DNA of 64,000 nucleotides, from positions 1 through 64,000 of the forward strand of contig NZ_JAAAMU010000006.1 in NCBI RefSeq assembly GCF_009909195.1, read 5' to 3'. The DNA is from Paenibacillus sacheonensis. Lineage in GTDB: Bacteria; Bacillota; Bacilli; Paenibacillales; Paenibacillaceae. Numbering within the stretch: position 1 is the stretch's first letter; every line of letters begins with the position of its first letter. Both the position numbers and the translations under genes were made by a program. The notes below the pieces were generated by a model. That model searched no databases and was not told the origin of the DNA. It saw nothing but the letters and a program-made list of their open reading frames with translations. Shown piece by piece: positions 1,889 through 64,000 of this stretch.

Positions 1889-1938
1889 TGTTTGCAGTGG
1901 GTAAGCATGTAATTACAATCTATTGATTTTAACGCCAA

Positions 1939-1975: not shown

Positions 1976-1986
1976 TGTTTGTGGTA

Positions 1987-3843: not shown

Positions 3844-3881
3844 AACGCGCATATGGCGAGCTTCCTCAACCCTTGCGCGTT
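3844..3881 (-). terminator. Intrinsic terminator of perR
   Basis: On the minus strand AACGCGCA (3874-3881) pairs with TGCGCGTT (3844-3851), followed by TTTTATT. The loop is about 22 bases. It is about 60 bases after the perR stop. Confidence 0.65.
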
Positions 3882-3885
3882 CATT

Positions 3886-3923
3886 CGATTCATTATCGAT
3901 CGATCGATTCATTATCGATCGAT
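3886..3923. repeat. Two tandem copies of a 19-bp AT-rich unit
   Basis: CGATTCATTATCGATCGAT occurs twice head to tail (3886-3904, 3905-3923), followed by a degenerate partial copy (CGAAGTCGTTATCG). Each unit contains overlapping self-complementary ATCGAT. It lies between the perR stop and its terminator, so it would be in the perR 3' untranslated RNA. No function is evident. Confidence 0.8.
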
Positions 3924-3938
3924 CGAAGTCGTTATCGT

Positions 3939-4376
3939 TTAGTTTGCCTTATGCCTCGATGCGCAGCTTGCGCATTGTCCGTAGATTTCCATGCGATGTC
4001 CCTCGACTCGAAAACCCGTTTCCTTGGAAGCGGCGATCTCCACTTCCGTCAAAGGAGGATAGTCGAAGTCGACGATCGTGCCGCAAGTTCGGCAAATCGC
4101 ATGATAATGCTCGGATAAGTCGGCATCGAATCGGCTGGAATCATCGCCGTAGGTGAGTTCCCGGATTAATCCCGCCTCGACAAACAGCCGCAGGTTGTTG
4201 TATATGGTCGCCACGCTCATGCTCGGAAACGAAGGCGAGAGCGATTTATAAATTTCATCTGCAGTCGGATGAGTCATGGAGTGCATGAGAAAACTTAAAA
4301 TAGCGTGACGCTGCGGGGTCATACGAACGCCGGTACTTTTCAATTGCTCCAAAGCTTGTTCCACGGTCGCACCCAT
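3939..4376 (-). CDS. perR: Peroxide-responsive repressor PerR (Fur family)
   Basis: Metal-dependent repressor of peroxide-stress genes. It senses H2O2 by iron-catalysed histidine oxidation in the characterised B. subtilis protein. The 145-residue protein has the winged helix (TPQRHAILSFL to LRLFVEAGLIREL) and all five regulatory-metal ligands in register with B. subtilis PerR: H36, D84, H90, H92 and D103. The Asp at the last site is the feature that separates PerR from Fur. Two CxxC pairs (C95/C98 and near the C-terminus) form the structural zinc site. The ATG at 4376 is preferred over an upstream GTG because AAAGGAC is then correctly spaced. The promoter carries a perfect inverted repeat, suggesting autoregulation. 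Confidence 0.92.
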   Translation of the reverse strand: MGATVEQALEQLKSTGVRMTPQRHAILSFLMHSMTHPTADEIYKSLSPSFPSMSVATIYNNLRLFVEAGLIRELTYGDDSSRFDADLSEHYHAICRTCGTIVDFDYPPLTEVEIAASKETGFRVEGHRMEIYGQCASCASRHKAN

Positions 4377-4395
4377 GCCCAACACGTCCTTTCTG

Positions 4396-4440
4396 CAATA
4401 GTTTAGAACTATTGTACGTGCATCGTTTTCGATTTGTCAA
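4396..4440 (-). promoter_or_regulatory. perR promoter with overlapping operator
   Basis: TTGACA (4435-4440), 18 bases and TACAAT (4411-4416) form a near-consensus promoter reading into perR. A perfect 8-3-8 inverted repeat, CAATAGTT-CTA-AACTATTG (4396-4414), overlaps the -10 box. This is where a self-repressing PerR box would be expected, although it departs from the B. subtilis TTATAAT-N-ATTATAA consensus. Confidence 0.75.
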
Positions 4441-4457
4441 TGAAAGCGGAAATCATT

Positions 4458-6389: not shown

Positions 6390-6450
6390 AAGCCCCCTCC
6401 AGTCGTAAATCAGTCTTTATCGGTATTGTAACATATTCCCTATGCAGCAA

Positions 6451-6484
6451 AGAGGCATGACCGCCTATCGACGGACATGCCTCT
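6451..6484 (-). terminator. Terminator of the gatCAB operon
   Basis: AGAGGCATG (6451-6459) pairs with CATGCCTCT (6476-6484), with a further CCG/CGG pairing inside. It lies 24 bases after the gatB stop and is followed by TTTGCTGC on the minus strand. The T-run is short. Confidence 0.7.
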
Positions 6485-6507
6485 CTCCTCTTCGCTTAGA
6501 AAAGCGG

Positions 6508-7950
6508 TTATTGGTTCAGACGCGCGAGCAGCAGCTTGTTAACCAGCGCCGGATTCGCTTTGCCCTTCGTTTCTTTCATGACTTGGCCGACGAGGAAACC
6601 GATGGCTTTCTCTTTGCCGGCTTTGAAATCTTCCACGGACTGCGGATTCGCGCTGACGATCCGATCGACGACTTCGGCAATCGCGCCTTCGTCGCTGATT
6701 TGGACCAGTCCCTGCTCCTCGACGATTTGCTGCGGACGCTTGCCGGTCTCCAGCATCTCCTTGAAGACGGTCTTCGCGATCTTGCTGCTGATCGTCCCCT
6801 TCTCCATGAGACCGATCATCTCGCCAAGCCCCTGGCCCGTCAGCTTGATGTCCTCCAGCTCCAGACCGCCGGCATTCAGATAGCCGAGCAAATCGCCCAT
6901 GATCCAGTTGGACACGGATTTGGCATCCTTGGTGTATTGCAGGCTCTCTTCGAAGAAATCGGCCAGCTTCTTGGAAGCCGTGATGACTTCCGCGTCGTAG
7001 GAAGGCAGGCCGAACTCGGCCGTATACCGGGCTTTACGGGCATCCGGCAGCTCCGGAATGGACGCGCGAACGCGGGCCTTCCACTCGTCGTCGATGTGAA
7101 TTTGTACGAGATCCGGATCCGGGAAGTAACGGTAATCATGCGCTTCTTCCTTGCTGCGCATCGTGAACGTCTTGCCTTGCGTCTCATCCCAGCGGCGCGT
7201 CTCCTGGACGACCTTGCCGCCGCTGTCGAGAATATCGGCTTGGCGCATCTCTTCGTATTCCAAGCCGCGCTGCACGCCGCGGAAGGAGTTCATGTTCTTG
7301 AGCTCCGCGCGGGTACCGAACTGTTCCTGATCGTACGGACGGATACTGATGTTGGCGTCGCAGCGCAGCGAACCCTCTTCCATCTTAACGTCCGACACGT
7401 CGCAGTAGAGCATGATGGCTTTTAATTTCTCGAGGTAAGCTTTCGCTTCCTCCGGGGAACGGATGTCCGGCTCCGAAACTATCTCCACGAGCGGCGTTCC
7501 GACGCGGTTGAAGTCGACGAGGGAACCGAATCCGCCGTCGATGTGCGTAAGCTTGCCGGCATCCTCTTCCAAATGAAGGCGCGTGATGCCGATGCGCTTC
7601 GTCCGGCCGTTCACTTCGATGTCGATCCAGCCGTGTTCGCCGACCGGCTTATCGAATTGGGAAATTTGATAGGCTTTCGGCGAATCCGGATAGAAGTAAT
7701 TTTTGCGGTCGAATTTGCTGACGTCCGCGATTTGGCAGTTGAGCGCCATTGCGGCTTTCATCGCGAATTCAAGCGCCTGGCGGTTCAAGACCGGCAGCAC
7801 GCCGGGGTGTCCGAGACAGACCGGACATGTATGGGAGTTCGGCGGCGCGCCGAAGGAGGTCGAGCAGCCGCAGAAGATTTTGCTCTTCGTGTGAAGCTCG
7901 ACGTGCACCTCCAGACCGACGACCGTTTCGTATTTGTTCGGTTCAAACAT
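6508..7950 (-). CDS. gatB: Asp-tRNA(Asn)/Glu-tRNA(Gln) amidotransferase subunit B
   Basis: GatB binds the misacylated tRNA and activates the glutamate or aspartate side chain for amidation. The 480-residue protein has the usual N-terminal signature [20 protein letters not shown], the cysteine-bearing [20 protein letters not shown] segment, and the helical C-terminal YqeY-like tail ([17 protein letters not shown]). I place the start at the ATG at 7950, preceded by AGGAGGGCGAAACC. A longer reading frame upstream adds 27 unconserved residues. It is the last gene of gatC-gatA-gatB. Confidence 0.97.
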
Positions 7951-7981
7951 GGTTTCGCCCTCCTGCTTCCTAAACGTCCCG

Positions 7982-9439
7982 CTACAGCCGCGGACGCTGT
8001 TTGTGATGCTCGGTATGCTGCTCGTACGCATGCGCGGCGCGAAGCACCGTGCGCTCGTCGAACGCTTTGCCGATGATTTGCAGACCGACCGGCAGTCCGT
8101 CCGCGAAGCCGCAAGGCACGCTGATGGCAGGCACGCCCGCCAAGCTGACCGGAATCGTGCAAATATCGTTCAAATACATCGTGAGCGGGTCGCCGACCTG
8201 CTCGCCGATCGGGAAAGCCGTCGTCGGCGCCGTCGGCCCGATGATGAGATCGAAGTTTTGGAACACGTTGTCGAAATCCTGCTTGATCAGCGTGCGCACC
8301 TTCTGAGCCTTCAAATAATAAGCGTCGTAGTAGCCCGAGCTGAGCGCGTACGTGCCGAGCATGATGCGCCGTTTCACTTCAGGGCCGAAGCCTTGGCTGC
8401 GCGATTTGCGGTAGAGATCCAGCAAGTTGTCCGGATTGTCCGCGCGAACGCCGTAACGAACGCCGTCAAAACGGGCAAGGTTAGAGGAAGCTTCCGAGGA
8501 CGCCAGCAGATAGTACGTCGCCACCGCGTATTCCGTATGCGGCAGGGATACTTCTTCCCAGGTCGCGCCGAGGCTCTCGAATTGTTTGAGGGCGGCCAGA
8601 ACCGCCTCTTTCACTTTCGGGTCGATGCCTTGTCCCAAATATTCCTTCGGCACGCCAATGCGCAGACCCTTCACGTCGCCGGTAAGCGCGCTGACGTAAT
8701 CGGGAATCTCCACGTTCGCCGACGTGGAATCATTCGGATCGTAGCCGGCGATCGATTGGAGCACGTACGCCGAGTCCTCGACGTTCTTCGTCAGCGGACC
8801 GATCTGGTCGAGCGACGAGGCAAACGCCACGAGGCCAAAGCGCGATACGAGGCCGTAGGTCGGCTTCAGGCCGACGATGCCGCAATACGCTGCAGGTTGG
8901 CGGATCGAACCGCCGGTATCGGAGCCGAGCGCGAAGTAAACTTGTCCGGCCGCCACGGAAGCCGCGGAACCGCCGCTCGAGCCGCCCGGCACGTAATCCG
9001 TATTCCAAGGGTTGCGCGTCGGATAGAAGCTCGAATTCTCGTTGGAGCCGCCCATGGCAAACTCGTCCATGTTCAGTTTGCCGATCGTGACCGATTGCGC
9101 GGCCTTGAGCTTCTTCGTAACCGTCGCGTCGTAGATCGGATCGTAATTGCGCAGGAATTGGCTGGCGCATGTCGTGAGCAGGCCTTCGGTAACGATATTA
9201 TCCTTGATTCCGGCAGGCAAGCCGAACAGCAGACCCTGTTCGCCGTCCTCGGCCAGCGCCTTGTCCAGATCGGCAGCCGCAGCACGGGCCCCCTCCTCGT
9301 TCAAGGTCAAAAACGCTTTGATGGAATCATCCGTCGCGGCGATGCGCGAATAGGAAGCGTCCACCAAATCGGCGACCGACAATTCTTTCTTCTTCAATTG
9401 ATTATGTACTTCCTGAAGGCGTAAATCGAATAGAGCCAA
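7982..9439 (-). CDS. gatA: Asp-tRNA(Asn)/Glu-tRNA(Gln) amidotransferase subunit A
   Basis: GatA is the glutaminase subunit that supplies ammonia to GatB. It belongs to the amidase-signature family. The 485-residue protein has the catalytic Lys in GIKDNIV and the Ser-rich signature [15 protein letters not shown] with the cis-Ser and nucleophile Ser of [12 protein letters not shown]. The start codon is TTG at 9439, not ATG. It is supported by AGGGAGG eight bases upstream and by the conserved N-terminal reading. It lies between gatC and gatB with short gaps. Confidence 0.97.
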
Positions 9440-17115: not shown

Positions 17116-17889
17116 CTAGATCGTCATGGCTCCGAAGCCGCCGTCCACGCGAATCAACGAGCCGGTCACGTAACCGGAAGCGGCTTCCGAAGCCAGCCAC
17201 ACGACCGCGCCTTGCAGCTCCTTCGGATCGCCGAACCGCTTCATCGGCGTGTGGCCCATGATGCTAGCCACACGCTCTTCCGATAGAATCGCGCGGTTCT
17301 GCTCCGCCGGGAAGAAGCCCGGCACGATGCCGTTCACGCGGATGCCGTGCGGCGCGAATTCCCTGGCCAGAAACTGCGTCATGCTGTTGACCGCATGCTT
17401 CGAGGCCGAGTACGTGAATACGCGCGACAGCGGCGGACCCGCGGAGACCGAGCTGATGGTAATGATGCTTCCGCCATGTCCGGCGTCGATCATCGACCTG
17501 CCGAACACTTGGCAGGCCAGCATGACGCTCTTGGCGTTCACGTCCATGATGGCATCCCATTCGTCCTCCGTGATGTCGAAGAACGGCGTGGCGCTGTTCG
17601 TGCCTGCCGTATGCAGTAAAATATCGCTTCTGCCGTTCGGCGACCACGCGTCGATCTCGCCCTGCACGCGGATGAGATCGGCCTTGGATGCCGCGTCGGC
17701 CCGGAAGATGGCCGCGCGGCCGGAAGCGAGCAGCTGCGCCAGCTTCGGCTCCGCCTTCTCCGGATTGCGGACGACGAGCGCCGCGTGGGCGCCGTGATCG
17801 ATCAGCGCTTCCGCCATCACGATGCCGAGCGTGCTGCCCGCCCCGATAACGACCGCCGTACGGCCCGTTAAATCGAATAACGTACTCAT
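17116..17889 (-). CDS. SDR oxidoreductase, probable D-mannonate oxidoreductase (UxuB-like)
   Basis: A 257-residue short-chain dehydrogenase. The nucleotide loop is GAGSTLG, the catalytic Ser is in ITISSVS, and the YSASK motif supplies Tyr and Lys. The stretch PGFFPAEQNRAIL, followed by HTPMKRFGDPKEL and the VDGGF end, closely resembles SDR-type D-mannonate oxidoreductases, which interconvert fructuronate and mannonate. It shares an operon with uxuA, whose substrate is mannonate. The ATG overlaps the araC stop by four bases. Another 2-keto-sugar acid substrate cannot be excluded. Last gene of the operon. Confidence 0.72.
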   Translation of the reverse strand: MSTLFDLTGRTAVVIGAGSTLGIVMAEALIDHGAHAALVVRNPEKAEPKLAQLLASGRAAIFRADAASKADLIRVQGEIDAWSPNGRSDILLHTAGTNSATPFFDITEDEWDAIMDVNAKSVMLACQVFGRSMIDAGHGGSIITISSVSAGPPLSRVFTYSASKHAVNSMTQFLAREFAPHGIRVNGIVPGFFPAEQNRAILSEERVASIMGHTPMKRFGDPKELQGAVVWLASEAASGYVTGSLIRVDGGFGAMTI

Positions 17890-50011: not shown

Positions 50012-53000
50012 TTATTCCGCAAGCCAGCCATCGAGAATCATGCGGGCAACGGCGGCAAGCGATTGGATCGTGATTTCGCCGTTGTCGAAGATGTCGGCTG
50101 CGGCAATGGCATCCCAGCCTTCGTCCGTCGATTTCTTGCCGAAGTATTTCACGATGAGCGACAGATCCTTGATCGTGATGCTTGTTTGTCCCGGTACGAG
50201 CGTAATCAGCTTCGTCATGAAGGTATGCACCGCAGCGTTCAAGTCGGTTACCGCTTGGTCGACTTGACCTTGCGTCGCCGCAGCGTTGTTCTTCACGCCC
50301 GTTGCGTTGTCGATCGCCGTTTGCAGCGCAGCCTTGGAGCCGACTGCATACTTGCCGAGCTTCGTGCCTTCGACAGCGGCATTGTGCTTGCTTTGCGCGT
50401 TCGTAATCGCCGCGGTCAATGCAGCCTTATCCGCGCTCACGACAACCACTTTGCCTTCAAATGCTGCCACTGCGTCCGCAAGAGCCGTCGCAGCATCATT
50501 CACTTGCGATTGCGAAGCCGAAGCATTGTCTCTGACGGCTGCCGCGGCGTCGATCGCCGTTTGCAGCGCGGCTTTGGCGCCTGCTTGATACTGGCCGGCC
50601 GCCGTGCCTTCAACCGCAGCGTCATGCTTGGCCTGCGCGCTTGCGATCGCCGAGCTCAGAGCTGCCTTGTCGACGTTGCTGATTGCGATGCTGGCGGAAG
50701 CGCCAGCCGTATTGACGTTGACGGTCTCGCCGTCGTCGCCGATCGTCATGTTCGTCAGGCCGACGGAGGTCGATCCGACGGCTGCGTTTCCTTTGACGCC
50801 GCCATGCAGCACCAGCAGATCGCCGTCGGCTGCCACGCCGTTGCCCGCGCCTTCGCTGGCCAGCAGGATACGGATCTGGCCCAGCTCCGACTTGACCGCC
50901 GTGCCAAGGACGACGAAGTGTTCTTTCAGCGATGCGATAGCGCTTTCGGCCAAGCTAAGCTTGCCGTTCTCGTCCGTCACCGTCGCGAATTCCAGCTTGT
51001 TCGGATCGTAGTGCACGGTCAGATCGGCAATCGAGAAGCGATCCGTCACGCCGGCAACGCCGACGTTCAGATCGACCGGTTGGCCGACAAAAGCCGTCGC
51101 CGGAGCATCGATCGTCGCGTGCAGGGAATCCGAAGGTTCCTCCGGCTGCAGCGACGTGCCGGACGAGAGGATCAGATCGCCGAATTTCAATGGATCCTTG
51201 CCGGTCGAGATGCCGTCCATATAGGAAATCCAGCCCTCGCGGCCTGCGCCGTCGTTGTCGTTGACGATGACGGAGATGCCGAGATCGGTCAGATCCGCCG
51301 TCGCCGGCTTGCGCGCATCGGTCAGGATGCTGTTCCATGGGAAGGCGACCACGTAGTTCGTCAAGTGATTCGCTTCGTCACGGGTGAATTTGTACTTGAT
51401 GTCGTTCAGGTTGCCGGTCGTAACCGGTCCCCATGTTTCGTTGCCGAGCGCCGATTCGCCGGTCGTCGCGTTGAGCGACGCGATGAACCGCGGATGGTTG
51501 TCGCTCGATGCCGTTCTGCCCGGACGTTCAGGGTCGAACGACACCTGCAGGCTGTCCGCGCCCCAAGAATCGTATACGTTGGCCGCGGACATGCTGTGCA
51601 CGTCGTCCGTCACTTGCACGGCGAGGTAGAGATAGTCGTCGTCCCACTTGACGTATTGGTCGCCCGAGCGGTCGCCGGCTTGGTCGCCGATCAAGTGAAC
51701 GACTTGCGAACCGGACCACGCGTCCGCGTCGATCGAGCCGTCGAGCGTGCCGCCGCTTAGAATCGGATGTTCCGGATCGACGCGGGTTGCCGTCAAATCG
51801 CTGATGTCTTTATTGAAGGAACGGTCGTAACCGTCCGCGTTCGTAATATGGAACGTGAAATGCGTGCGGTTGTCGGCCGATAGCATCGCGGCCGGAATCG
51901 TAACGTACTGCGTCGTGCCGCCCGCGATGTCTCCGAAGCTGTAGCTGCCTGCTGCAGCCGCCGGCTCCTCGACCTGCACGGTTCCGCCTGCGACGCTGCC
52001 CGAGTCGTGCTTGTTCGTGAGCGCGACTTTGACGTCGTAACCGGTCTTGGCCGCATTCTGCACCGGATAAATCTCGACGCCGATCGAATCGTCCGTGTTC
52101 TTCGTCTGCACGGTGAGCGTCTTGTAGTTCGTGCCGTTCGCCGTCGGCGTAATCTTCAGGTCGTACGTGTATTTCGCGTAGTTATCCGGGACATGCAGCA
52201 CCAGCGTGTCTTTCGAAGAGCCTGCGCTGAACGTGCCGCCCGAGACGATCGACCAGCCTTGCGGCATGTCGACTTGGTATGAACCGCTCAGACCTTTCGC
52301 GCCCTCGGTCACGCGGTTGATGTCCAGGCTCAGGTCTTGGCCGGGCGTTACGCTGACCGGACTGAACGCTGCCGTGTCGAAAATCACGTCGGACGAGTCT
52401 TGCGGTTGTTCGTACACGCGCACCCAGTCGATGTACATATCGGATTGATCGCCGTAGCGGTCGAACCCGTAGCCGGGAGGGAACGCGTCGCTTTGCGTCA
52501 TGGCGTTGTTGATCAGGAAGTAGCTTCCTTTGCGCCACGACAACGGCAGCGTCTTCTGTTTGTAGACTTCCTTGTTATCGAAGTAGTACGTCGTGTAATC
52601 TTCCTGAACCAGCACGCCGTACGTGTGGAAGCCCATCGAGATGTTGCCGGCGTCGCTGCCGATCAGGTCGACCGTATTGACCGCCTTGCCGCCGCCGTCC
52701 AAATTATCGTAGCCCCATGGATGGGTGGCGATGGAATAACCCGACACGTTCGGCGGGTAAGCCTCGATGATATCGAGCTCGTCGGTCGCCTCGTCGTTCA
52801 CGCCGGTCAGCGTCCAGAACGCCGGCCATTGGCCCGGGTTGGCACCGACGAAGAAGCGCGCCTCCAAGTATTGTTCCGTGTAGCCTTTCGTGCGGAAGCC
52901 TGCGCCGTCATCGCCGACGGAGCTGAGGAAGCCCGTCGTATAATTGCGCTGGTAGCCGTCGACACTGGCCGGAAGCTTCTGTTCGTAGTACTTCGTCTTG

Positions 53001-56000
53001 ATCTTCAAGTAATCCTCGACTTGCTCGAACGGGTCGTACGCGCTGCCGCGGTCGGCAAACAAGGCGTTGCCGTAATCCTTATAATCCGGTTTGTGCGAAG
53101 CGTACGTCGTACGTTGACCTTGGCCGTCGATGCCCGTCTTCGAGATCGTCGGCATCGTCTTGTAGTCGTCCTCGAACGTCACGTCCATGTCCAGTCCGTC
53201 CAGCTGCGACGGCATCGGCGCGTTCTCCAGGCCCATGTTCCAATCCGCGCCGCCATTATTATAGAACTGGAAGTAATCCTCGATCGTCTTCGAGCCGTCC
53301 GTCTTCGTCGCCGTCACCTTCACGGCTACCGGGCCGTGCGGGAATTGGTCGGCGTCGAACGTGATCGAGCCTTTGCCATCGCCGTCCAGCGTGACGTCGG
53401 CCAGCTTGACGATATAACCGGAGGCGTCCGCGTGCTGGGCATCCGGCTGATGCAGCATGTAGCCTGCGGCAGCCGTGTAACCGCCCTTCGCCGTGAAGTT
53501 CAGCGTCGTCTCGCCGTCAAGCTCCGCACGGTAGGCCGGCGATTGCAGCGTCACCAGGTCCGGCAGCGCGATCTTCGGCGCCACGACGGATACGGTTTGG
53601 GTTGCATACTTCACGCCATTGACGATCGGCGCGATCTTGATCTGGCCGTTCGGCAGCGCGTAAGCCGCCGGGACGCTGACGACGATCGTGTCGCTCGCGC
53701 TGCCGGCCGCGAAGCTGCCGCCCGATACGACGGACCAGTTCGTGTCCGGGAACGTCACTTCGTACGTGCCGGCCATCTCTTGAGCATTCTCGTCGCGTGT
53801 GATCGCGATGCTGGCGTTCTCGCCCTGCACGACGTTGATCGAGGCAGGCGCCGTGAAGCCGGGAACGACCGCGTTCGGATCGTACACGTATTCGAAGCCG
53901 TCGACGATGGCGGTATCGCGGCCGCTGTTGGCTTCGGTCTTCACTTTCAATTCGAGCTTATGCTGGCCGCCTCGCAGGCCCGTCTTCTCGAATACTTTGG
54001 CGTTCGATACCGTGTCTGCCGTTTTGGAATCGATCGTCGTCTGGAAAACGCCGTCCAGGTAGACGTCCAACAATCCGCCTTTATCGTACGTGCGCATGAA
54101 GACGGATACCGCCGTACCGTCGAACGTGAATGCGTTCACGTCGCCGTTATTGTTGGCGTTATCGTACATGTAACCCCAACCGTCATGCCACCAGCCGCCG
54201 GTCGTGGCGAAATAATCTTTGGATTGCGTCGATTTGTCGAACTGTCCCCAGTTGCCGCCGTCTCCGCCCGAGGTGCTCTTGTACGGATACGTCGTGGAAT
54301 CGACGCGAATCGTTTGAATCTCGTTCGACTTCACGTAATCATACTCGAAGCCCTCCAACACGATCGAACCGCCAGGTCTTGTGACGACCAGCTTAAGCGC
54401 ATGGTTCCCGACGGGAAGACCGCTCTTGCTGAATACCCGTTTCTTGCCGCTGCTGCCGTTCGTGTCGACCGAGCCTTGCTTGACGCCGTCGATATAAACG
54501 TCGAACGCGCTGCCGCCGTCGATGTAGCGGGCGTACAGCCCAACGGCATCGCCCTCGAAGTTGAACGTTACGTCTTGATCCGTGCCTGCCGTGATATACA
54601 TCCACGCCCAGCTGTCTTTCCACCAGTTGCCATGGAACGAGAAGTAGTCGTTCGGCTGCGAGCTGTGGTCGAACGAGGTCCAAGCGCCGTCCGTCCCTCC
54701 GGACGCGGTCACATACGGATAAGTGCTGCCATCTACCGTACGCTTCTCGCCGACGCCCGTAATCGCCGGCGCTTCCGGATCGTCCGGTGCCTGCACGGTC
54801 ACCTTCATCGGCGGGTAGGTTCCGTCGCTGATGGTCGGCGTAATGATCACCTGACCGTTCTTGCTCTTGTAGTTGGAAGGCACTTTAAGTTGAATCGTAT
54901 CCTCGTAATGGTTGGTCGAGAATGACTGGCTCGCTGCCGCCTGCCAATTATCGCCTACCTTCACCTGCCACCCGCTTGTCGGGAACGTCAGGCTGTACGT
55001 GCCGAAGCGGGTTCCCGCCGCGCCGTTGCGGTTAATGTTCACCGAGATTTCATCTCCCGGAGCTGCCTTGAAGAACGTATTTTCCGTCCAGAATTTCGGC
55101 AGGTTCGGATCTTCGAAATGGCGGAACTCGAAGCCCGCGATACGCAGGAAACGCGTAGCTGCGTTGTTCGCGCCCATAATCTTGAGCGTATGGTCGCCAT
55201 CGGAGAGTCCGCTCTTCTCGAACGCCCGGAACGGCTGATCCTGCGTTGCGTTCGTATCGATATGCGTCTGAAGCTGGCCGTCCAAGTAAATGTCGGCTTC
55301 GCCGCACTCGGTGCACTTCGTCATATCGAGGGCAATGGATGTCCCGTTGAAGTTGAACTCCAACGCGGTCGAAGCGTCTTCTCGAACGTACATCCAGCTC
55401 CAGCCGTCGCGCCACCAGCCGCCGTTGATGAAGTTGAAATACGTGCCGAGGTTCGTGCTCGGGTCGTACGTTGCCCATGACCCTTGATCGCCGCCGCCCG
55501 TGTTGCGATATGGATAGGTAGTGGAATCGACGCGAATCAATTCGCCCGTCGCGCCGGTTGCCGTCGCGCTGATCACGATCGGCTCGTAAGATGTACCGCC
55601 GCTCGCCACCGGCGTGATCGTGATATCGGCCGTCTCATCGTAGTCGTTCGGAACCAGGAACGTCAGCGTGTCGCTGCTTGCTCCTGCCGCGAAAGCGGCG
55701 TTGTACGTGCCGGTTATGTCGACGAACTGCTCGCCGTTCATGATCTTCCAGCCTGCCGGCGCTTGTACGTGGTACGAGCCGGACAGCGCTTTCGCTGCAT
55801 CGTTGCGGCTCACGTTGACGCGCACGACGTCGCCGGAGAGCGCCTTGACCGAAGCATCGCTTTCGAAACGAACCGTACCCGGCGCGTCTTGATACACGCG
55901 TACCCAATCCACGTACGTATCGGCCTCGTTGCCATAGCGCGTGAAGCCGCCCGGAACGTCGAAATTCTCGAACGGATCCGCTGCGTTGCCGTTGATGCCG

Positions 56001-57235
56001 TAGTGATCCGACACGGCGGCGTTAATAATGAAATAATTGCCGTATTGCCAACTGAATGGCAATGTTTTGTGGCGCGTTACTTCCACGTTGTCGCAGTAGT
56101 AATACGTCCAGTCTTCCGTAATGTAGACGGCCAGCGTATGGAAGCCCATCGCTAGATTGATATTGCCGAAAGGAGCCGTATCGAGGTTGGCGCTGTAGCC
56201 GCCGCCGAGCTTGCTGGCGTCGTAGCCCGCAGCCGCCGGTTTGTCGTACCCCCACGGATGCCAGGCGATTTGGTAGCCGGTAGGCGTACCCAAGTAGCCC
56301 TCGATGATATCCAGCTCGTCGCTAGGCTGGTTGGCCAGGTCCGGATTCTGAACGTAACCGTTCGCCGTCAACGTCCAGAATGCCGGCCACATGCCGGGGT
56401 TCGGACCGAAGAACATGCGGGCTTCGAAATACTGATTGCGTCCGCCTTCGGTATGGAAGCCGCCGCCCGCCTGGTCCATGGAGGACAGGTAGCCGGTGCT
56501 GACCTTCTGCTTCCAATAGTCGTTGCGGACATAGCCCGTCGGATGATAGATCGTCGACAGCTTCATGTACTCGTTATCGCTGATCGAGAACGGATTATTC
56601 GGGCCGTCGGCATCTTCGAACGCCGCCCAGCCGAACATGCCGCCGCGCGCCTCGTCGACCTTGGCCGATGCGTACGTCGCGCCGATGCCGGTCTTGTTGA
56701 TCGTCGGCATCGTTTTGAAATCGTCCTGGAAGACGGTAGGCATGCCGCTCGTGACCGGATTGACCGGGGCGTTATCTAGTCCTGCCCGCCACGCCACGCC
56801 GACCTTGTTGTTGAGCTGCAGGTAGGCATTGTCGATTTCTGTGCTGCCCTGGAACACTTGGATGCGCACGGAAATCGGGCCTTTCGGATATTCGGAAGCC
56901 GGGAATTGCACGCTTCCGTCTCCGCCCGCCAGCGTAACCTCGCCGACGAGATCCTTCGTGCCGTTGCTGTTATGATTCAAATCGCTTGGCTGCTTCTGCG
57001 AGTAGACCTTAGCGGTTGTACCGAGCGTATTGTGGAACGAGATGGTAATGGTATTGTCGTTAATGTCCGAGCGATACGCCGGAGACGTCACCGTCGTAAT
57101 GCGATCGGCATCGCCGGCCGCAGCCTGGACCTTACTTGAGAAGCCGAAACCGACAAAGCTCGATAGGATCATCGAAAACGTCATCAATAACGCCATGGAA
57201 CGATTAAACCGTCGCCATTCGCGCTTCATTCCCAT
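50012..57235 (-). CDS. Giant secreted protein with two GH16 glucanase modules, a cohesin and a dockerin-like C-terminus
   Basis: Exported 2407-residue protein. Approximate order: signal peptide 1-39; Ig-like 46-140; GH16 165-450 with ELDIIE (E307, E312); NEW3-like 450-555; carbohydrate-binding module 565-700 (VDSTTYPY start); NEW3-like 700-820; second module 830-965; third module 975-1115; NEW3-like; Ig-like 1220-1340; second GH16 1345-1610 with ELDIIE (E1486, E1491); NEW3-like; CBM9-like 1815-2020; cohesin 2035-2185; two FIVAR-like helical repeats; dockerin-like 2345-2404. GH16 enzymes cut beta-1,3- or beta-1,3/1,4-glucans and some galactans; which one is not readable. The Ig-GH16 cassette is duplicated. 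GGGAGG precedes the ATG. The dockerin-like end has degenerate calcium loops. The next gene encodes a cohesin-SLH protein. Confidence 0.88.
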   Translation of the reverse strand: MGMKREWRRFNRSMALLMTFSMILSSFVGFGFSSKVQAAAGDADRITTVTSPAYRSDINDNTITISFHNTLGTTAKVYSQKQPSDLNHNSNGTKDLVGEVTLAGGDGSVQFPASEYPKGPISVRIQVFQGSTEIDNAYLQLNNKVGVAWRAGLDNAPVNPVTSGMPTVFQDDFKTMPTINKTGIGATYASAKVDEARGGMFGWAAFEDADGPNNPFSISDNEYMKLSTIYHPTGYVRNDYWKQKVSTGYLSSMDQAGGGFHTEGGRNQYFEARMFFGPNPGMWPAFWTLTANGYVQNPDLANQPSDELDIIEGYLGTPTGYQIAWHPWGYDKPAAAGYDASKLGGGYSANLDTAPFGNINLAMGFHTLAVYITEDWTYYYCDNVEVTRHKTLPFSWQYGNYFIINAAVSDHYGINGNAADPFENFDVPGGFTRYGNEADTYVDWVRVYQDAPGTVRFESDASVKALSGDVVRVNVSRNDAAKALSGSYHVQAPAGWKIMNGEQFVDITGTYNAAFAAGASSDTLTFLVPNDYDETADITITPVASGGTSYEPIVISATATGATGELIRVDSTTYPYRNTGGGDQGSWATYDPSTNLGTYFNFINGGWWRDGWSWMYVREDASTALEFNFNGTSIALDMTKCTECGEADIYLDGQLQTHIDTNATQDQPFRAFEKSGLSDGDHTLKIMGANNAATRFLRIAGFEFRHFEDPNLPKFWTENTFFKAAPGDEISVNINRNGAAGTRFGTYSLTFPTSGWQVKVGDNWQAAASQSFSTNHYEDTIQLKVPSNYKSKNGQVIITPTISDGTYPPMKVTVQAPDDPEAPAITGVGEKRTVDGSTYPYVTASGGTDGAWTSFDHSSQPNDYFSFHGNWWKDSWAWMYITAGTDQDVTFNFEGDAVGLYARYIDGGSAFDVYIDGVKQGSVDTNGSSGKKRVFSKSGLPVGNHALKLVVTRPGGSIVLEGFEYDYVKSNEIQTIRVDSTTYPYKSTSGGDGGNWGQFDKSTQSKDYFATTGGWWHDGWGYMYDNANNNGDVNAFTFDGTAVSVFMRTYDKGGLLDVYLDGVFQTTIDSKTADTVSNAKVFEKTGLRGGQHKLELKVKTEANSGRDTAIVDGFEYVYDPNAVVPGFTAPASINVVQGENASIAITRDENAQEMAGTYEVTFPDTNWSVVSGGSFAAGSASDTIVVSVPAAYALPNGQIKIAPIVNGVKYATQTVSVVAPKIALPDLVTLQSPAYRAELDGETTLNFTAKGGYTAAAGYMLHQPDAQHADASGYIVKLADVTLDGDGKGSITFDADQFPHGPVAVKVTATKTDGSKTIEDYFQFYNNGGADWNMGLENAPMPSQLDGLDMDVTFEDDYKTMPTISKTGIDGQGQRTTYASHKPDYKDYGNALFADRGSAYDPFEQVEDYLKIKTKYYEQKLPASVDGYQRNYTTGFLSSVGDDGAGFRTKGYTEQYLEARFFVGANPGQWPAFWTLTGVNDEATDELDIIEAYPPNVSGYSIATHPWGYDNLDGGGKAVNTVDLIGSDAGNISMGFHTYGVLVQEDYTTYYFDNKEVYKQKTLPLSWRKGSYFLINNAMTQSDAFPPGYGFDRYGDQSDMYIDWVRVYEQPQDSSDVIFDTAAFSPVSVTPGQDLSLDINRVTEGAKGLSGSYQVDMPQGWSIVSGGTFSAGSSKDTLVLHVPDNYAKYTYDLKITPTANGTNYKTLTVQTKNTDDSIGVEIYPVQNAAKTGYDVKVALTNKHDSGSVAGGTVQVEEPAAAAGSYSFGDIAGGTTQYVTIPAAMLSADNRTHFTFHITNADGYDRSFNKDISDLTATRVDPEHPILSGGTLDGSIDADAWSGSQVVHLIGDQAGDRSGDQYVKWDDDYLYLAVQVTDDVHSMSAANVYDSWGADSLQVSFDPERPGRTASSDNHPRFIASLNATTGESALGNETWGPVTTGNLNDIKYKFTRDEANHLTNYVVAFPWNSILTDARKPATADLTDLGISVIVNDNDGAGREGWISYMDGISTGKDPLKFGDLILSSGTSLQPEEPSDSLHATIDAPATAFVGQPVDLNVGVAGVTDRFSIADLTVHYDPNKLEFATVTDENGKLSLAESAIASLKEHFVVLGTAVKSELGQIRILLASEGAGNGVAADGDLLVLHGGVKGNAAVGSTSVGLTNMTIGDDGETVNVNTAGASASIAISNVDKAALSSAIASAQAKHDAAVEGTAAGQYQAGAKAALQTAIDAAAAVRDNASASQSQVNDAATALADAVAAFEGKVVVVSADKAALTAAITNAQSKHNAAVEGTKLGKYAVGSKAALQTAIDNATGVKNNAAATQGQVDQAVTDLNAAVHTFMTKLITLVPGQTSITIKDLSLIVKYFGKKSTDEGWDAIAAADIFDNGEITIQSLAAVARMILDGWLAE

Positions 57236-58988: not shown

Positions 58989-59879
58989 TTAGTTCAGGGA
59001 TTGGAACAGCAGCTGGCCTTCCTTGACCCACGGATAGATAAAAATCTGAAACGTGTACATGATGGGAATGCCCGCGAGGACGAAAAGCAGGTACGACGTC
59101 GATTCCTTGCGGCTGTCCTTCGCCAGCTCCAGCTTCTCCTTATAATCCTGGATCCGCTCGCGCAGCAGCTCATAATACCGCTCGCTCTCGTGCAGGCGCA
59201 GCGAATCGATCGTCTCGACGAAGCTCAGCCCTTCTTCCGTGCCGAGCCGAAGCTTGAGGCGCCGCAGCGCGCTTTCCGCATCGTGGTACCACTCTCCGAG
59301 CAGCGTCTGGAGATCCCCGCGCATCGTGCGCGTGTAAGGCAGGCATCGCATCAGCTTCGTATGGATATGAAGCGAGGAGCCTGCGAGGTAGAGGAGCTGG
59401 TTGCTGACGATGTGAATTTCTTTGGTCATGCGCACCGCGCGCGTCCGGCGTACGGCTTCCAGCCAAGGCAAATCCCACAGCAGCAGGAGCAAGACGGCAG
59501 CCAGCGCCAATGGTGCCGACACCGCAGGCAGCACGGCGATCAAAATCTTCGTCATGCCGTAAGCCAATATAGTCCACAGCGGCGTTCCTGCCAGAATCGC
59601 CCGGCGAAGCAGTACGTACAGCGCCGCATCGCCCGTATAGCCGCAGCCCGCCAGCAAGCGCTCCCTTTCTTTGAATGTCTGCGAGACGCGGCTCACTCTC
59701 GCCATTCGCAGCCAGCGGTCGTCCACCGTATGGGTCTTCCATTTCAATAATGCCAAATGGGCGAACCGCGGCTTCTTGAACGAAGCGGCCTTCAACAAGG
59801 AGACCACGAGCACGAAGCCAAGCGCGTATTGAATGACGAGGGCAGCCCACATGAGGACGATAGTGATTTCATTGCTCAT
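58989..59879 (-). CDS. tadC: Tad pilus inner-membrane platform protein TadC
   Basis: A protein of about 296 residues of the type II secretion F family, with N-terminal and central transmembrane segments (ITIVLMWAALVIQYALGFVLVV, ILIAVLPAVSAPLALAAVLLLLLW), a cytosolic helical T2SF domain (RMTKEIHIVSNQLLYLAGSSLHIHTKLMRCLPYT) and a C-terminal membrane helix. With TadB it forms the membrane platform through which the TadA ATPase drives pilin assembly. Two ATGs are possible: 59891 lies too close to AAAGGAG, 59879 rather far; I use the latter with low certainty. Confidence 0.85.
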   Translation of the reverse strand: MSNEITIVLMWAALVIQYALGFVLVVSLLKAASFKKPRFAHLALLKWKTHTVDDRWLRMARVSRVSQTFKERERLLAGCGYTGDAALYVLLRRAILAGTPLWTILAYGMTKILIAVLPAVSAPLALAAVLLLLLWDLPWLEAVRRTRAVRMTKEIHIVSNQLLYLAGSSLHIHTKLMRCLPYTRTMRGDLQTLLGEWYHDAESALRRLKLRLGTEEGLSFVETIDSLRLHESERYYELLRERIQDYKEKLELAKDSRKESTSYLLFVLAGIPIMYTFQIFIYPWVKEGQLLFQSLN

Positions 59880-59898
59880 CGGAGCGCTCATGCTCCTT

Positions 59899-60834
59899 TC
59901 ACATTTTTTTGCGCGACAGCCACAGGCCCATCACGAAGGACAGGAAAATCATAATGGCGGCGTTGAGGAGCATGTTCCGCCCCCCGGGATCCAGCACGTA
60001 ATACCGATATGCATTCTCGGGACTGTAATGGAAGTTAATGCCCATGAACAGCAGCAGAAACAAGATTGGCGAGAAGCTCGCCAGCCGGATCTCCAGCAGC
60101 TTGTTGCGCTCCTGCTGATTAGCCCGGCGCGCCTTGCGCATGTCCGTGATGAGATCCTTCAAATTCCCTGCGATCGGATGCCCCTCGGCCAGGCCGGCGC
60201 GTACGATATTGATAAAATAATCCGCCCATACATGGCCGAGCGACGCCGCGAATATTCGCAGGCTGGCTTCATCGTCTCCGCGAACGGAGACATTCCGGTA
60301 CAATTGCTCGAATACGGCCTGCATCGGCCCGAGCATCCGTTTCTCCTCTACCGTTCGCTGCAGCGCGGTGCGGATCTGCCGTCCGCCGCTGACCAGGCAG
60401 CATTGGTAGAAGAGCTCGATCGCGGGCAGGAAATCGATGCGCGTCTTCATTTGCCGATGAACCTGCATCGTCCGAAGCAGCAGATAGGGCAGCAAACCCA
60501 GCACGCCGCCCAGGAGAACCAGCCCCTTCAAGCTCTTGAAAAACAGGACGCCGAAAGCGGCGCCCGCAAGCAGCAGAAGCAAGCTAAGCAGCACGACCGA
60601 GCCTGGGCGCAAGCCGGACTGCAGCGACTCCAGCAGCTCGGACAAATGACGGTAGCCTCTGTCGAAGCGCTGCAAGTATCTGGCCAGCCGCTCGCCGAAT
60701 CGCTGCTCCCTCCGGTAATTCAATCGGCCGACGATCTGCTGACGCTGGAACCAAGCGCCGAGCAGAGCCCGGACCGCAACAAACAGCGTGCAAAACAAGG
60801 CGGCGCCAACGAGAATCAACCCCAGCTTCATCAT
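59899..60834 (-). CDS. tadB: Tad pilus inner-membrane platform protein TadB
   Basis: A 311-residue T2SF-family protein: N-terminal transmembrane helix (LGLILVGAALFCTLFVAVRALL), cytosolic linker, two central membrane helices (VLLSLLLLLAGAAFGVLFF, GLVLLGGVLGLLPYLLL), the T2SF domain (IDFLPAIELFYQCCLVSGGRQIRTALQ) and a C-terminal membrane helix. Partner of TadC. The ATG at 60834 overlaps the tadA stop (ATGA), implying translational coupling, and is preferred over a GTG at 60846. Confidence 0.88.
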   Translation of the reverse strand: MMKLGLILVGAALFCTLFVAVRALLGAWFQRQQIVGRLNYRREQRFGERLARYLQRFDRGYRHLSELLESLQSGLRPGSVVLLSLLLLLAGAAFGVLFFKSLKGLVLLGGVLGLLPYLLLRTMQVHRQMKTRIDFLPAIELFYQCCLVSGGRQIRTALQRTVEEKRMLGPMQAVFEQLYRNVSVRGDDEASLRIFAASLGHVWADYFINIVRAGLAEGHPIAGNLKDLITDMRKARRANQQERNKLLEIRLASFSPILFLLLFMGINFHYSPENAYRYYVLDPGGRNMLLNAAIMIFLSFVMGLWLSRKKM

Positions 60835-61943
60835 GTGGCAGCCCACGTCCCTGCTTCATGAACCTGAAGAACGACACGGGCGGCATTGGCTGTCGGTCCG
60901 GCGCTCTCGCGAGGATCCGGCCATGCTGCCTTCCTCTCCGAATCAGCTCCCAGCCTCAGCTTGGCCAATGCGCCGGCCGATGGCAGCTGCGGATACCGCC
61001 ATTCCCCGCTTCCTTCATCGTATACCGCCCATTCCCTCACGGCGGTCTCCCCGTTCTCCCAGCCGAGCTCCCCAAGGCGGACCAGCCTCCGCCGCCCGGC
61101 TACCAGCCGCATCTCGATACCGAGCTGGGTCACGTATTCGGCAATTCGTTTGGTCAGACGTTCGGGGCTCATGGCTCTTCCGTCCAGCAGGCACATATCC
61201 GCGATCGCTTCCGGAACGTCTTCAAGCGCGCTGGCATGCAGCGTCGTCATGCTTCCCGCATGCCCTCGGGTGCAGGCGCGCACGTAGATGTTCGCATCCT
61301 CGTCCCGGATCTCGGCATGAACGATGCGCTGCGGCGACTGCCTGAGCGCGAGCTTGAACGCCTGCGCCGATCGATGAAGCGGATCCTCTTCGTCCACCTC
61401 GTATTCAATGACGTTCTTCGCCGGAAAGTCCCGCTGCAGCATCAGCTCATGCCTGCCTTCGATCGTCACGAGCCGCTCCTCGTCGGGCAGCTCGCCGATC
61501 AGCGCCTTGATGAGATTCGTCTTGCCCGAGTTGGTCGGACCGATAACGACGATATTGAATCTGGCTTGCAGCGCGGCGAGCAGCATGAACCGAATCCTGT
61601 CGCTGAGCGTGCCGTAGTCCGGCTCGCTCAGCTGCGCCAGCTCGAATCTACGAACCGTATAGAACCGCAGGGTCAGCGTCGGCTTCGCCGTAAATCCGAA
61701 CCCCGTCATCGTGACCCGCGTGCCGTCCCGAAGCATGACCTCGGCCCAGCGCTTGCGCGGATTGATGCGATCGTTATTGTACAGCACGAGGTTTTGCTGG
61801 ATCCGCTCCACCTCGCGCAGCGATGCGAAAGCGAACGGGGATGGCAGGGCTGCCCCGTCCCGAACCTCGAAGATCGAGGTCCCGACGACTTGGATCTCCT
61901 CCAGCCCTTCCCGCTCCCGAAGCACAAGCTCCAGCACGTTCAT
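60831..61943 (-). CDS. tadA: Tad pilus assembly ATPase TadA/CpaF, 5'-truncated at a mobile-element junction
   Basis: VirB11-like ATPase that powers Tad pilus assembly. The fragment from the ATG at 61943 codes 370 residues with Walker A GPTNSGKT (135-142), the Asp box (RLVTIEGRHEL), and HAEIRDEDANIYVRACTRGHAGSMTTLHAS. The frame stays open upstream to 61991 (reading ...HSVFAIDEVIGMNVLE...), then meets a TAA at 61992-61994, just where the serine-recombinase gene begins. Full-length TadA proteins have roughly 80-120 more N-terminal residues. The missing part is therefore probably beyond the mobile element. No ribosome binding site is evident for an internal start, so the gene is probably non-functional in the integrated state. 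Confidence 0.85.
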   Translation of the reverse strand: MNVLELVLREREGLEEIQVVGTSIFEVRDGAALPSPFAFASLREVERIQQNLVLYNNDRINPRKRWAEVMLRDGTRVTMTGFGFTAKPTLTLRFYTVRRFELAQLSEPDYGTLSDRIRFMLLAALQARFNIVVIGPTNSGKTNLIKALIGELPDEERLVTIEGRHELMLQRDFPAKNVIEYEVDEEDPLHRSAQAFKLALRQSPQRIVHAEIRDEDANIYVRACTRGHAGSMTTLHASALEDVPEAIADMCLLDGRAMSPERLTKRIAEYVTQLGIEMRLVAGRRRLVRLGELGWENGETAVREWAVYDEGSGEWRYPQLPSAGALAKLRLGADSERKAAWPDPRESAGPTANAARVVLQVHEAGTWAAT

Positions 61944-62008
61944 GCCGATGACCTCATCAATAGCAAATACAGAATGTTCATGGTATAATCGTTAGGAGGT
62001 GGTACATA

Positions 62009-63442
62009 ATGAGCAAACACGTAGCGATATTCAATAGAAAGTCCCGATCAGAAGGCGATACAGATGAGACAATGCAAAACCATAGGCAAATAACAAGAAG
62101 GTTGTGCGAGGAACGGGGATTCACTTATATAGAATATGAAGAGGTCATTTCTGGTGCAAGCGCATTAGAAGAAAGGACAGAGCTTATAAGGATGCTCCAG
62201 GACGTTGAAAAGGGCTTGTTTCAAGCCGTTGTCACGGTCGAGTTAAGCCGCTTATCCCGTAGCGGTCACTATTCGCACATAATCGCTGACACGCTCGCTG
62301 AACATAATGTTCTTATCATCACACCACGTGAAACGATCGACTTAAACATTGATTCACAGCGGTTTTTATACGACATTGGGTCTGCTGTCAACTCGAATGA
62401 ATACCGAACAATTAAGCGTAGGATGCGGCAGGGGATTATTGAGAAGGCAAAACGCGGTGAGTACGTCGCTGGTAAGGTGCCGTTCGGGTACGATGCAGTT
62501 ATTATTGGAAAGAAGCGGACGCTTGTACCTAACGATGATGCCGATATAGTTCGGGTTATCTACAACCTTGCTGAGAACGGGTACGGAAACAAAGAGATAG
62601 CCAAAAGGATGGGCAAAGCTCATAAATCGATTGAGAACATTCTCCGAAACAAACAATATACAGGTACCCTAGTCTATCAATTGTACAATAAGCCAAGAAC
62701 CAAAGGTGGTATTATCACTGACGTAATAGAGGTACCTAATGCTTTTGAAGCTATTGTCCCAATGGAGACGCACTTCCGAGTTCAAGCTGCCATGAAAGGG
62801 CGTTTGCGAGGGGACATTGATGTAAAGGCGCGATCTCGTGGTGAAGTCAGGACAATCCTAAAAGATCTCCTATATTGTAATGTTTGTAATATTAAGACCG
62901 GTTTTAATTTGGATCGTGGACGTATGTATATCAAGGCGTGCCCTAAGTGTAGAGCAAAAGGAGCTCAAGAGTCTGTTGTTCTAGAGGCTTTTTACAGTCA
63001 ATTGGAATTTGTGGAGAAGCACTGGAGAGAGTTATGGGAGAAGGCGTTGGACAAAAGCTCATCAGCTATAGGAGACGATTTGACCGTTCAAATGGAGACC
63101 TTAGAGCAATCCCGCTCCAAGCTCACTAACAAGCTCAAGAAGGCGCGAGAAGCCTATACGGAAGGGATCTTTACTAAGGAGGAATATCTGACTGATAAAG
63201 CTGCAATTGACAAAGAATTGATTAGCATAGATCAAACGTTGAAACAGGTTAAAGACGAAATAGAGAAACGCGACTTGTTTACTGACTCTGATATGTTGGA
63301 ACATAGGTTGACAGTCTTGGAGAAGGTTAAGAAGTTAACAAATTTAACAGAGATAAATCGACTTCTGAAACTAATCATTGCATTAGTGTACTACCAAAGA
63401 AATGAAGATGATTCTATCGAATTAATGATTGCTCCAAAGTGA
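62009..63442 (+). CDS. Large serine recombinase (site-specific integrase)
   Basis: A 477-residue recombinase. N-terminal resolvase domain with the nucleophile Ser12 in IFNRKSRSEGD and the arginine-bearing VTVELSRLSRSG; recombinase domain (VAGKVPFGYDAVIIG, RMGKAHKSIENILRNKQYTG); a zinc ribbon with CxxC pairs (CNVC, CPKC; about residues 290-316); then a coiled coil (about 360-435) typical of phage integrases that control synapsis direction. AGGAGGTGG lies ahead of the ATG. A TGGTATAAT extended -10 element (61981-61989) is close upstream but would start transcription within the binding site, so the true promoter is uncertain. It should integrate and excise the element at tadA. Confidence 0.93.
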   Translation: MSKHVAIFNRKSRSEGDTDETMQNHRQITRRLCEERGFTYIEYEEVISGASALEERTELIRMLQDVEKGLFQAVVTVELSRLSRSGHYSHIIADTLAEHNVLIITPRETIDLNIDSQRFLYDIGSAVNSNEYRTIKRRMRQGIIEKAKRGEYVAGKVPFGYDAVIIGKKRTLVPNDDADIVRVIYNLAENGYGNKEIAKRMGKAHKSIENILRNKQYTGTLVYQLYNKPRTKGGIITDVIEVPNAFEAIVPMETHFRVQAAMKGRLRGDIDVKARSRGEVRTILKDLLYCNVCNIKTGFNLDRGRMYIKACPKCRAKGAQESVVLEAFYSQLEFVEKHWRELWEKALDKSSSAIGDDLTVQMETLEQSRSKLTNKLKKAREAYTEGIFTKEEYLTDKAAIDKELISIDQTLKQVKDEIEKRDLFTDSDMLEHRLTVLEKVKKLTNLTEINRLLKLIIALVYYQRNEDDSIELMIAPK

Positions 63443-63452
63443 TTTTGCGGAA

Positions 63453-63478
63453 GAAGCCTATTCCGATTTGGATTAGGC
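63453..63478. terminator. Terminator after the recombinase gene
   Basis: AGCCTA...TAGGCT with an inner TCC/GGA pairing around GATTT, followed by GTTTTCTTTGGTTTC on the plus strand. It also covers the end of the converging small gene. Confidence 0.82.
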
Positions 63479-63652
63479 TGTTTTCTTTGGTTTCAGGGAA
63501 TTGATTTTTATTAGTATACGTTTGGCTTCAGCAGAATGGTACCCGAATAGTTTTACGACTTCCTTATAATCTTGCCATAATAATTGAAGGATTGCGTCGT
63601 TCGCTTGTATGTGCTGCTCTTGTATCAGATTAGAAAATCCGTCAAGGTTCAT
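63473..63652 (-). CDS. Small protein of unknown function on the mobile element (59 residues)
   Basis: Reads MNLDGFSNLIQEQHIQANDA, with a middle part LWQDYKEVVKLFGYHSAEAK and the basic end KINSLKPKKTA. Predominantly helical and soluble. AGAGGA lies eight bases before the ATG. The size and place next to the integrase fit a small regulator such as a recombination directionality factor, or an unrelated phage protein; neither can be shown. Its stop codon lies inside the recombinase terminator hairpin. Confidence 0.55.
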   Translation of the reverse strand: MNLDGFSNLIQEQHIQANDAILQLLWQDYKEVVKLFGYHSAEAKRILIKINSLKPKKTA

Positions 63653-63894
63653 TGTTCCATCCTCTCAGAGGTATATTGGGCTTGCATTTAAACTAAGGAG
63701 GACAAAGGCTCAAATTCACAACAGCATGTCAAAAGATCGAGAAAAAATTATCTGTTGCAATTCCTAACCCCCCGCCCCTTTTTACATCGATTTCCAGCCT
63801 TCAACCCGCCACCCCACGTTGATAGCAAGACAAAAAAATTTCCCTTAATCACACATTTTCGCTCTGGTCCAATAGTGGAAACCCAGTTATCGCA

Positions 63895-64000
63895 TCAGGA
63901 TTGCACTCTCGATGGACGTTTCTTGATACTCTTTTGTGATACGTTGTAAAACTCGTTGATTCCATTAGAATATCGATCAACCATCTTGAAGCCCAATTCC
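63895..64000 (-). CDS. Possible C-terminal end of a gene running past the right edge
   Basis: On the minus strand one frame is open from the window edge to a TGA at 63895-63897 and reads ...GFKMVDRYSNGINEFYNVSQ and ends KKRPSRVQS. Thirty-four codons without a stop in A/T-rich DNA is only weak evidence for a gene. No family is recognised. Confidence 0.3.
   Translation of the reverse strand, partial: ELGFKMVDRYSNGINEFYNVSQKSIKKRPSRVQS

Follow-up and report, generated by a model that had tools for sequence, protein, structure and literature searches.

In the first 64,000 bases of contig C43 of the soil bacterium Paenibacillus sacheonensis (the window; the contig has 516,047 bases and belongs to a 46-contig draft genome, G000, of 7.44 Mb), the gene for a TadA-type ATPase of a tad-like pilus machine is cut in two by a 15.9-kb insert. 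The insert is very probably a mobile genomic island (none of the ten proteins searched is recognisably a structural phage protein), which integrated site-specifically into tadA by means of its own SprA-type large serine recombinase, and whose excision would in principle restore the gene. The locus shows integration with precise junctions, two open halves of tadA, an open recombinase gene and inverted att arms, and in related species other elements have inserted into this gene repeatedly and independently. Judged from sequence, disruption by a mobile element, reversible in principle, appears to be the best reading of the locus.

The interrupted gene and its junctions

60831 to 61955, minus strand: 3′ part of tadA, host DNA, from about residue 116 of an intact relative to the stop codon; first ATG at 61943
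61951 to 61955: left copy of the core, which reads GAGGT along the coding strand; its right-hand counterpart, at C43:77843-77847 (L002:17843-17847), lies outside the window
61956 to 64000: portion of the element in the window; it runs on to C43:77842
62009 to 63442, plus strand: large serine recombinase of 477 amino acids, from a clade sister to SprA

The original prediction for this stretch held that tadA keeps an intact catalytic part, loses its N-terminal end at 61992, and is followed at once by a recombinase gene in DNA of lower GC. The catalytic part is indeed an uninterrupted minus-strand frame (60831-61943, counted from the first ATG) with a T2SSE match of 1.2e-20; the fragment also matches the VirB11 (9.4e-29) and TadA (3e-27) profiles, both under their curated cut-offs, and the 3′ part is 74-84% identical to the top match from every one of 21 genomes of the genus. 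The position of the break, however, has to be moved. An in-frame stop does lie at 61992-61994, but the sequence stops resembling that of relatives at 61951-61955, where the core GAGGT lies (ACCTC on the plus strand), and this is the true break; the 36 bases of open frame beyond it are element DNA, read by chance. The recombinase gene starts just past it, at 62009, and GC content is as predicted, 38.1% in the insert versus 60.6% in the flanks.

Beyond the right edge, where the prediction had suggested looking for the rest of tadA and for a short direct repeat, both are present. The missing 5′ part lies in the same orientation, 15,892 bp away, from C43:77843, and GAGGT is common to the two junctions. 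Its frame, on the minus strand of the next 20 kb (L002), starts at L002:18189 and ends ...YATLAEALFAEV at the core (17843-17847); intact relatives read ...ALFAEVIGMNVLEL, or a near variant, at the junction, and the core sits within the codons of 'AEVIG'. Joined at GAGGT, the halves give an open frame that aligns to residues 1-491 of a relative's TadA with 0 stops and with the junction at residue 116; on paper, therefore, precise excision would restore the host gene, as had been proposed. Comparison with uninterrupted tadA had also been proposed: we searched 394 genomes of the family (match threshold 1e-45) with residues 39-451 of the relative's 491, a query that insertions nearer the gene ends would escape, and 134 of the 139 genomes with a match carry it in one segment.

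The C-terminal part of tadA has ratios of nonsynonymous to synonymous substitution (dN/dS) of 0.054-0.161 against six relatives, compared with 0.072-0.158 in 15 pairs among the relatives themselves; values for the N-terminal part were noisy, the upstream frame being included in the relatives, and were left unused. The C-terminal part thus appears to be under normal selection with no decay, which is compatible with either a young insertion or periodic restoration of the gene.

The element and its recombinase

The element is 15,892 bp long, ends at C43:77842 and carries, besides the recombinase gene, the following features.

61959 to 61976: attP-like arm on the left, related in inverted orientation to that at the opposite end (score 12)
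63473 to 63652, minus strand: open reading frame (ORF) of 59 amino acids directly behind the recombinase gene; a directionality-factor candidate by position only
63895 to 64000 in the window, on to C43:64236, minus strand: phrog_9576 protein of 113 amino acids
C43:64541-66709: primase of 722 amino acids (D5_N, DUF5906; P4-family primase profile 97.1 bits, cut-off 108.7)
C43:69965-71095: DUF3800 protein
C43:72532-77486 (L002:12532-17486), minus strand: McrBC-like set of a coiled-coil protein, an AAA_5 ATPase and a DUF2357-PDDEXK nuclease

The recombinase has a Resolvase domain (PF00239, 1.9e-20) followed by a Recombinase domain (PF07508, 9.4e-10), the arrangement of a large serine recombinase. 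S12, R13, R81 and R84, which we take to be its catalytic residues, are invariant in 18 sequences. So are the four cysteines C290, C293, C311 and C314, although a search for a zinc ribbon gave no PF13408 match at 0.001. The original prediction had likened the insert to SP-beta, and for the recombinase the likeness is apt. SP-beta-group phages rank best among the top 20 of 248 matching phage records (28-30% identity over 97%, E of about 1e-47), and a 32-row tree groups the recombinase clade with SprA (YokA, which we take to be the same protein) to the exclusion of six other recombinases with support of 97/88, SprA lying on a long branch; the clade without SprA has 94/85. The named proteins of this clade come from Bacillus, Neobacillus, Peribacillus and Paenibacillus, and P0002 is a 60% relative of the window's recombinase.

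At 1e-60, the recombinase finds a match in two of the 394 family genomes, one of them the window's own. A relative in G226 (49% identity; L146:1-1295) starts beside what, read by eye, appears to be the broken end of a PhnB/VOC-like gene. The clade is therefore probably not tied to tadA. A search with back-translated patterns found no close recombinase relatives in genome contigs or viral contigs; alignment-based searching recovered 44-45% relatives on two IMG/VR contigs of 174,510 (L150) and 166,580 (L151) bases, and tblastn found no tadA in these two loci.

An 18-bp imperfect inverted arm stands beside the core at both ends of the element; random pairs inside the element were as good in 2 of 2000 trials, and in 6 of 1000 in a second run. 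Inverted arms are expected where an attP site has been split by a serine integrase (PMC5595907). Ten element proteins, compared with PHROGs, fell into primase, integrase/invertase, ATPase and unknown families, and none of these ten matched the terminase, portal, capsid or tail families that would mark a prophage. Of the traits of phage satellites (PICI-like), the element has an integrase and a P4-family-like primase, the latter below its cut-off; no hijack gene was recognised in the proteins searched. A protein of 266 amino acids has a weak JetD match (2e-5). The three-gene set at the end beside the tadA 5′ part, whose AAA_5 ATPase matches PDC-M26A (7e-45), is by its architecture a candidate McrBC-like defence system.

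The most likely course of events is this. Integration driven by the recombinase at the GAGGT core split tadA; while the element is integrated, the N-terminal quarter of the ATPase is parted from its catalytic part, and the machine should be without a motor. Excision by the recombinase with a directionality factor would restore tadA exactly. The element may gain from silencing a dispensable machine, or be tolerated because of it, rather than serve as a programmed host switch.

The tad-like machine and split tadA genes in relatives

58989 to 59891, minus strand: tadC-like gene, named by position; open frame, no match in Pfam or NCBIfam
59899 to 60846, minus strand: tadB-like gene (T2SSF); open frame

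On the minus strand of the window the order is tadC-like, tadB-like and the 3′ part of tadA; the 5′ part, past the element, is directly downstream of a CpaE-like and a CpaB-like (SAF) gene. The neighbours include matches to T2SSF and to SAF (8.3e-5); the tadC-like and CpaE-like products had no Pfam match and were named by position and eye, and no pilin genes were identified at the locus. The best solved relatives of the TadA alignment are CpaF (3.5e-33). Against the TadA profile TIGR03819 (cut-off 373.15) the fragment scores 95.7 bits, an intact relative (L008) 108.8 and a second ATPase of the window's genome 314.4, all below the cut-off. This second ATPase, CpaF-like and with an unbroken frame (314 bits), belongs to another tad-type cluster (L152, G000:C4:142001-156000; 224-8984, minus strand) with two T2SSF genes, a weak TadE match and a prepilin peptidase. 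The original prediction that excision could turn piliation on is thus only partly upheld: the tadA frame would be restored, but the genome has two tad-like clusters; the interrupted ATPase, a divergent TadA, belongs to one of them, and the ATPase frame of the other is unbroken, so that excision need not switch on piliation as such. As to other pilus motors, no ComGA exceeded the cut-off in 14 genomes, and the window's genome had no match at 1e-30; at that threshold the ComGA profile gave pilus-ATPase matches in 7 of the 14, among them three with a split tadA (G004, G066 and G465). The cut-off is perhaps too strict here, as it was exceeded by only 2 of 14 control genomes. Elsewhere in the window, 50012-57235 on the minus strand encodes a probably secreted protein of 2407 amino acids that by eye resembles a repeated carbohydrate-active enzyme.

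The window's genome is not alone in having a split tadA. In the family survey the gene is split in G000, G004, G066 and G081; in a survey of the order, 119 of 392 genomes matched tadA, 59 of them from outside the family, and G465 and G507 were split. Altogether, among 198 genomes with a tadA match, 189 have it in one segment, one has a distant match, two have adjacent pieces and six are split by elements. Each of the six has a different element, four with a serine recombinase (three of these prophages), one a tyrosine-integrase prophage and one a TniQ/TniB-type transposon, at residues 116-386. Besides the island described here they are as follows.

G004: 40,855 bp; serine recombinase, terminase, portal; core TC, residue 386
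G066: 42,531 bp; serine recombinase, portal, major head; core CGG, split at residue 253 within the Walker A stretch
G465: 40,630 bp; serine recombinase, terminase, portal, major head; core CAGAAA, residue 329
G081: about 40.4 kb; tyrosine integrase, terminase, tail sheath; core of 8-9 bases, residue about 368 (368-371, approximate)
G507: 50,093 bp (L053-L055, G507:C1:2959510-3009602); TniQ, TniB, Mu-type transposase; 5-bp duplication GCTGG, ends TGT...ACA, residue 381

All six split genes rejoin in frame, with no stops in the aligned part. Random pairs as good as the inverted arms numbered, per 2000, 2, 5, 1 and 0 in the four serine-recombinase elements (the G066 test was made one base off), 14 for the ends of the G507 transposon and 426 for G081. 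In the tree, the recombinases of G004, G465 and G066 all fall outside the SprA-sister clade. Those of G004 (L045:6553-7971) and G465 (L056:17149-18597) are sisters, 43% identical, and use different sites (residues 386 and 329, respectively). The G507 transposon, presumably Tn7-like, also carries an Mrr-type endonuclease, a DnaJ-domain protein and a group II intron reverse transcriptase.

Several other candidates proved not to be insertions. No element lies in G360, where two pieces adjoin, or in G515, where two frames do; G036 has a distant ATPase (32% identical) rather than a split tadA, and was kept in the 198. In G031 a single in-frame TGA was seen in one comparison and none in the family survey. 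Pattern searching of IMG/VR yielded one tadA locus, an intact copy (59%) in the middle of a 73,952-base contig (L063), a 'viral' contig that probably includes host DNA, and no prophage flanked by part of tadA. Among 50,697 phage records 14 match tadA, all at less than 60% identity. In GTDB 220 the best 80 of 169 tadA loci all match from residue 1 to at least 427 of 484, a list that favours intact genes and from which no rate is drawn. Among the open-licence papers listed, judged from titles and the starts of abstracts, we found no description of elements inserted in tadA or cpaF.

As controls we used tadB and fliI. tadB was matched in all of 80 genomes, taken from the 139 with tadA and including all four split cases of the family, and was split by an element in none; two overlapping adjacent pieces in G080 contain no insertion. 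fliI exceeded its cut-off in 390 of 394 genomes and was split by an element in none of the 392 judged. Adjacent pieces of fliI in G272 and G064 are not insertions; the two genomes left unjudged are G252, where the contig start cuts off the first part, and G173, without fliI, which has only ATPases (about 2e-64) like those found beside fliI elsewhere. Four of 139 for tadA against 0 of 392 for fliI gives p 0.0045 (Fisher), and 3 of 138 against 0 of 391, without the window's genome, gives p 0.017; against tadB, 4 of 80 versus 0 of 80 is not significant (p 0.12). These statistics are post hoc, the window having chosen the gene, and the cases are few; an estimate based on uniform insertion, for which the number of elements in a genome had to be assumed, carries no weight here. 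The comparison nonetheless suggests that tadA is a recurrent integration target, and says nothing on the cause.

Competing explanations and related systems

The readings considered here do not fully exclude one another, nor the preferred one, site-specific integration of a mobile island. An artefact of assembly or binning that joined the element to tadA is highly improbable: the genome is a draft, but both junctions lie well inside one 516-kb contig, have a common core and rejoin in frame, and two of the five other cases are in single-contig genomes (G004 and G507). The stop-free rejoined frame and the five further genomes with a split tadA dismiss chance or a lone assembly error. Some points do weigh against a non-phage island whose excision restores tadA. 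The 59-residue ORF, the one ORF tried as a directionality factor, has no match among 50,697 phage records at E 0.1, so that reversibility is putative; the lack of matches to terminase, portal, capsid and tail families holds for the ten proteins searched, recombinase included; and dN/dS of tadA has little power to tell a recent insertion from a gene kept by frequent excision. The reversible, regulated pilus switch of the original prediction is no more than a possibility. In our view it is unlikely that the insert has been domesticated as a gene-intervening element, comparable to skin, to SP-beta in spsM or to gin in gerE, and excises at some developmental stage or condition so that some cells build the machine. 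A recombinase sister to SprA, the precise core, the open halves and a C-terminal part of tadA with no sign of relaxed selection would fit such a programme. However, the insertion is found in one of 139 tadA-bearing family genomes and is not conserved, the related G226 recombinase appears to sit in another gene, no directionality factor came from the one ORF tried, and we know of no sporulation role for tadA. gin, non-phage and restriction-carrying, is a close architectural precedent (PMC5595907), but the Bacillus cases described in the papers cited restore sporulation genes.

Insertion of unrelated elements into tadA points at least as much to disabling, or tolerated loss, of the machine as to a switch, and we weigh the two explanations of this kind above a programmed one. 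We put at nearly even the chance that tadA is a safe harbour, a conserved yet dispensable gene in which integrases needing a conserved target settle at little cost. Conservation of the gene is high, its alignment columns averaging 71% identity over 12 sequences, and it is probably dispensable because it is absent or below threshold in 255 of the 394 family genomes. On the other hand, fliI, conserved and probably dispensable too, is split in none of the 392 judged, thin as a single control gene is, and related recombinases use different tadA sites rather than one inherited site. More tentatively, unrelated elements may hit tadA since silencing the machine favours them, either because DNA uptake that could cure the cell of them stops or because competing phages lose a pilus that they use, which would make tadA the Tad counterpart of comK, comYC, comM and comFA. 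We know of no role in DNA uptake or as a phage receptor for this tad-like locus, which counts against such a conflict, as do the other pilus-ATPase matches of G004, G066 and G465 (1e-30, ComGA profile), by which tadA is not the sole pilus motor, the second tad cluster, a ComGA cut-off that may be too strict, and the non-significant comparison with tadB. In its favour are the six cases in 198 genomes, at six positions and by serine-recombinase, tyrosine-integrase and transposase-borne elements, the different sites of the sister recombinases in G004 and G465, the absence of split fliI genes, and the ComGA search, in which none of 14 genomes passed the cut-off and the window's own gave no match at 1e-30. 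Moreover, tad genes are needed for transformation in Micrococcus luteus (PMC4322843, PMC6668835), a Tad pilus is reported to serve DNA uptake in Liberibacter (PMC8513845), Caulobacter has pilus-dependent phages (PMC13170226), and serine recombinases target competence genes more often than expected (PMC10083194), genes that are found disrupted in numerous species (PMC4774983).

A broader and more doubtful idea is that tadA is a battleground in Paenibacillales, where prophages with serine recombinases, an SprA-type defence island of non-phage kind, a prophage with a tyrosine integrase and a Tn7-like transposon each split it independently, since elements already integrated are safer, whether from being cured by DNA uptake or from rival phages, once the machine is off; excision of the recombinase-borne ones would then return a working machine, and piliation would be phase-variable under the control of mobile DNA. 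Should function lie behind the recurrence, tad-type pili would join competence genes as targets of conflict between hosts and mobile elements, and the uncharacterised tad-like machine would be predicted to serve DNA uptake or phages. Even the plain reading, a mobile island in tadA, yields a defined predicted attB/attP pair, together with a recombinase from the sister clade of SprA, and means that an annotation of tadA as a simple pseudogene would be wrong.

With its halves on one strand, a short common core and a frame restored on joining, the insert has the layout of a gene-intervening element. By profile its recombinase comes closest to CcrB and CcrC (the best in NCBIfam) of the staphylococcal cassette chromosome (SCC); SCC elements carry primase/helicase-type and restriction genes, and their target is rlmH. 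The score of 56.4 bits against a cut-off of 900, and the target tadA, set the window's element apart from SCC. The insertions in comK, comYC, comM and comFA resemble the present cases in that unrelated elements break DNA-uptake or pilus-type genes in many species, in comFA at differing sites; they differ in that the target here is tadA of a tad-like locus, whose role in DNA uptake is putative (PMC4774983). A survey of large-serine-recombinase targets likewise reports that coding genes are often used and competence genes enriched; the words pilus and secretion are absent from its main text, and tadA was not searched for there (PMC10083194). SP-beta in spsM of B. subtilis, with SprA and SprB, has a recombinase of the sister clade and a split host gene that is reconstituted on excision, but is a phage with a known factor, SprB, of 58 amino acids, whereas the one small ORF tried here has no match (PMC4191935). 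Closest in build is gin in gerE of Bacillus cereus, also a low-GC, non-phage island with serine recombination, restriction-type cargo and a gene split at a short core with its frame restored (PMC5595907). The core has 9 bp in gin and 5 bp here; gin has three recombinase genes and excises, as proven, in sporulation with GirC and GirX, whereas the element in tadA has one recognised recombinase, a tad-like ATPase as its target and a predicted excision.

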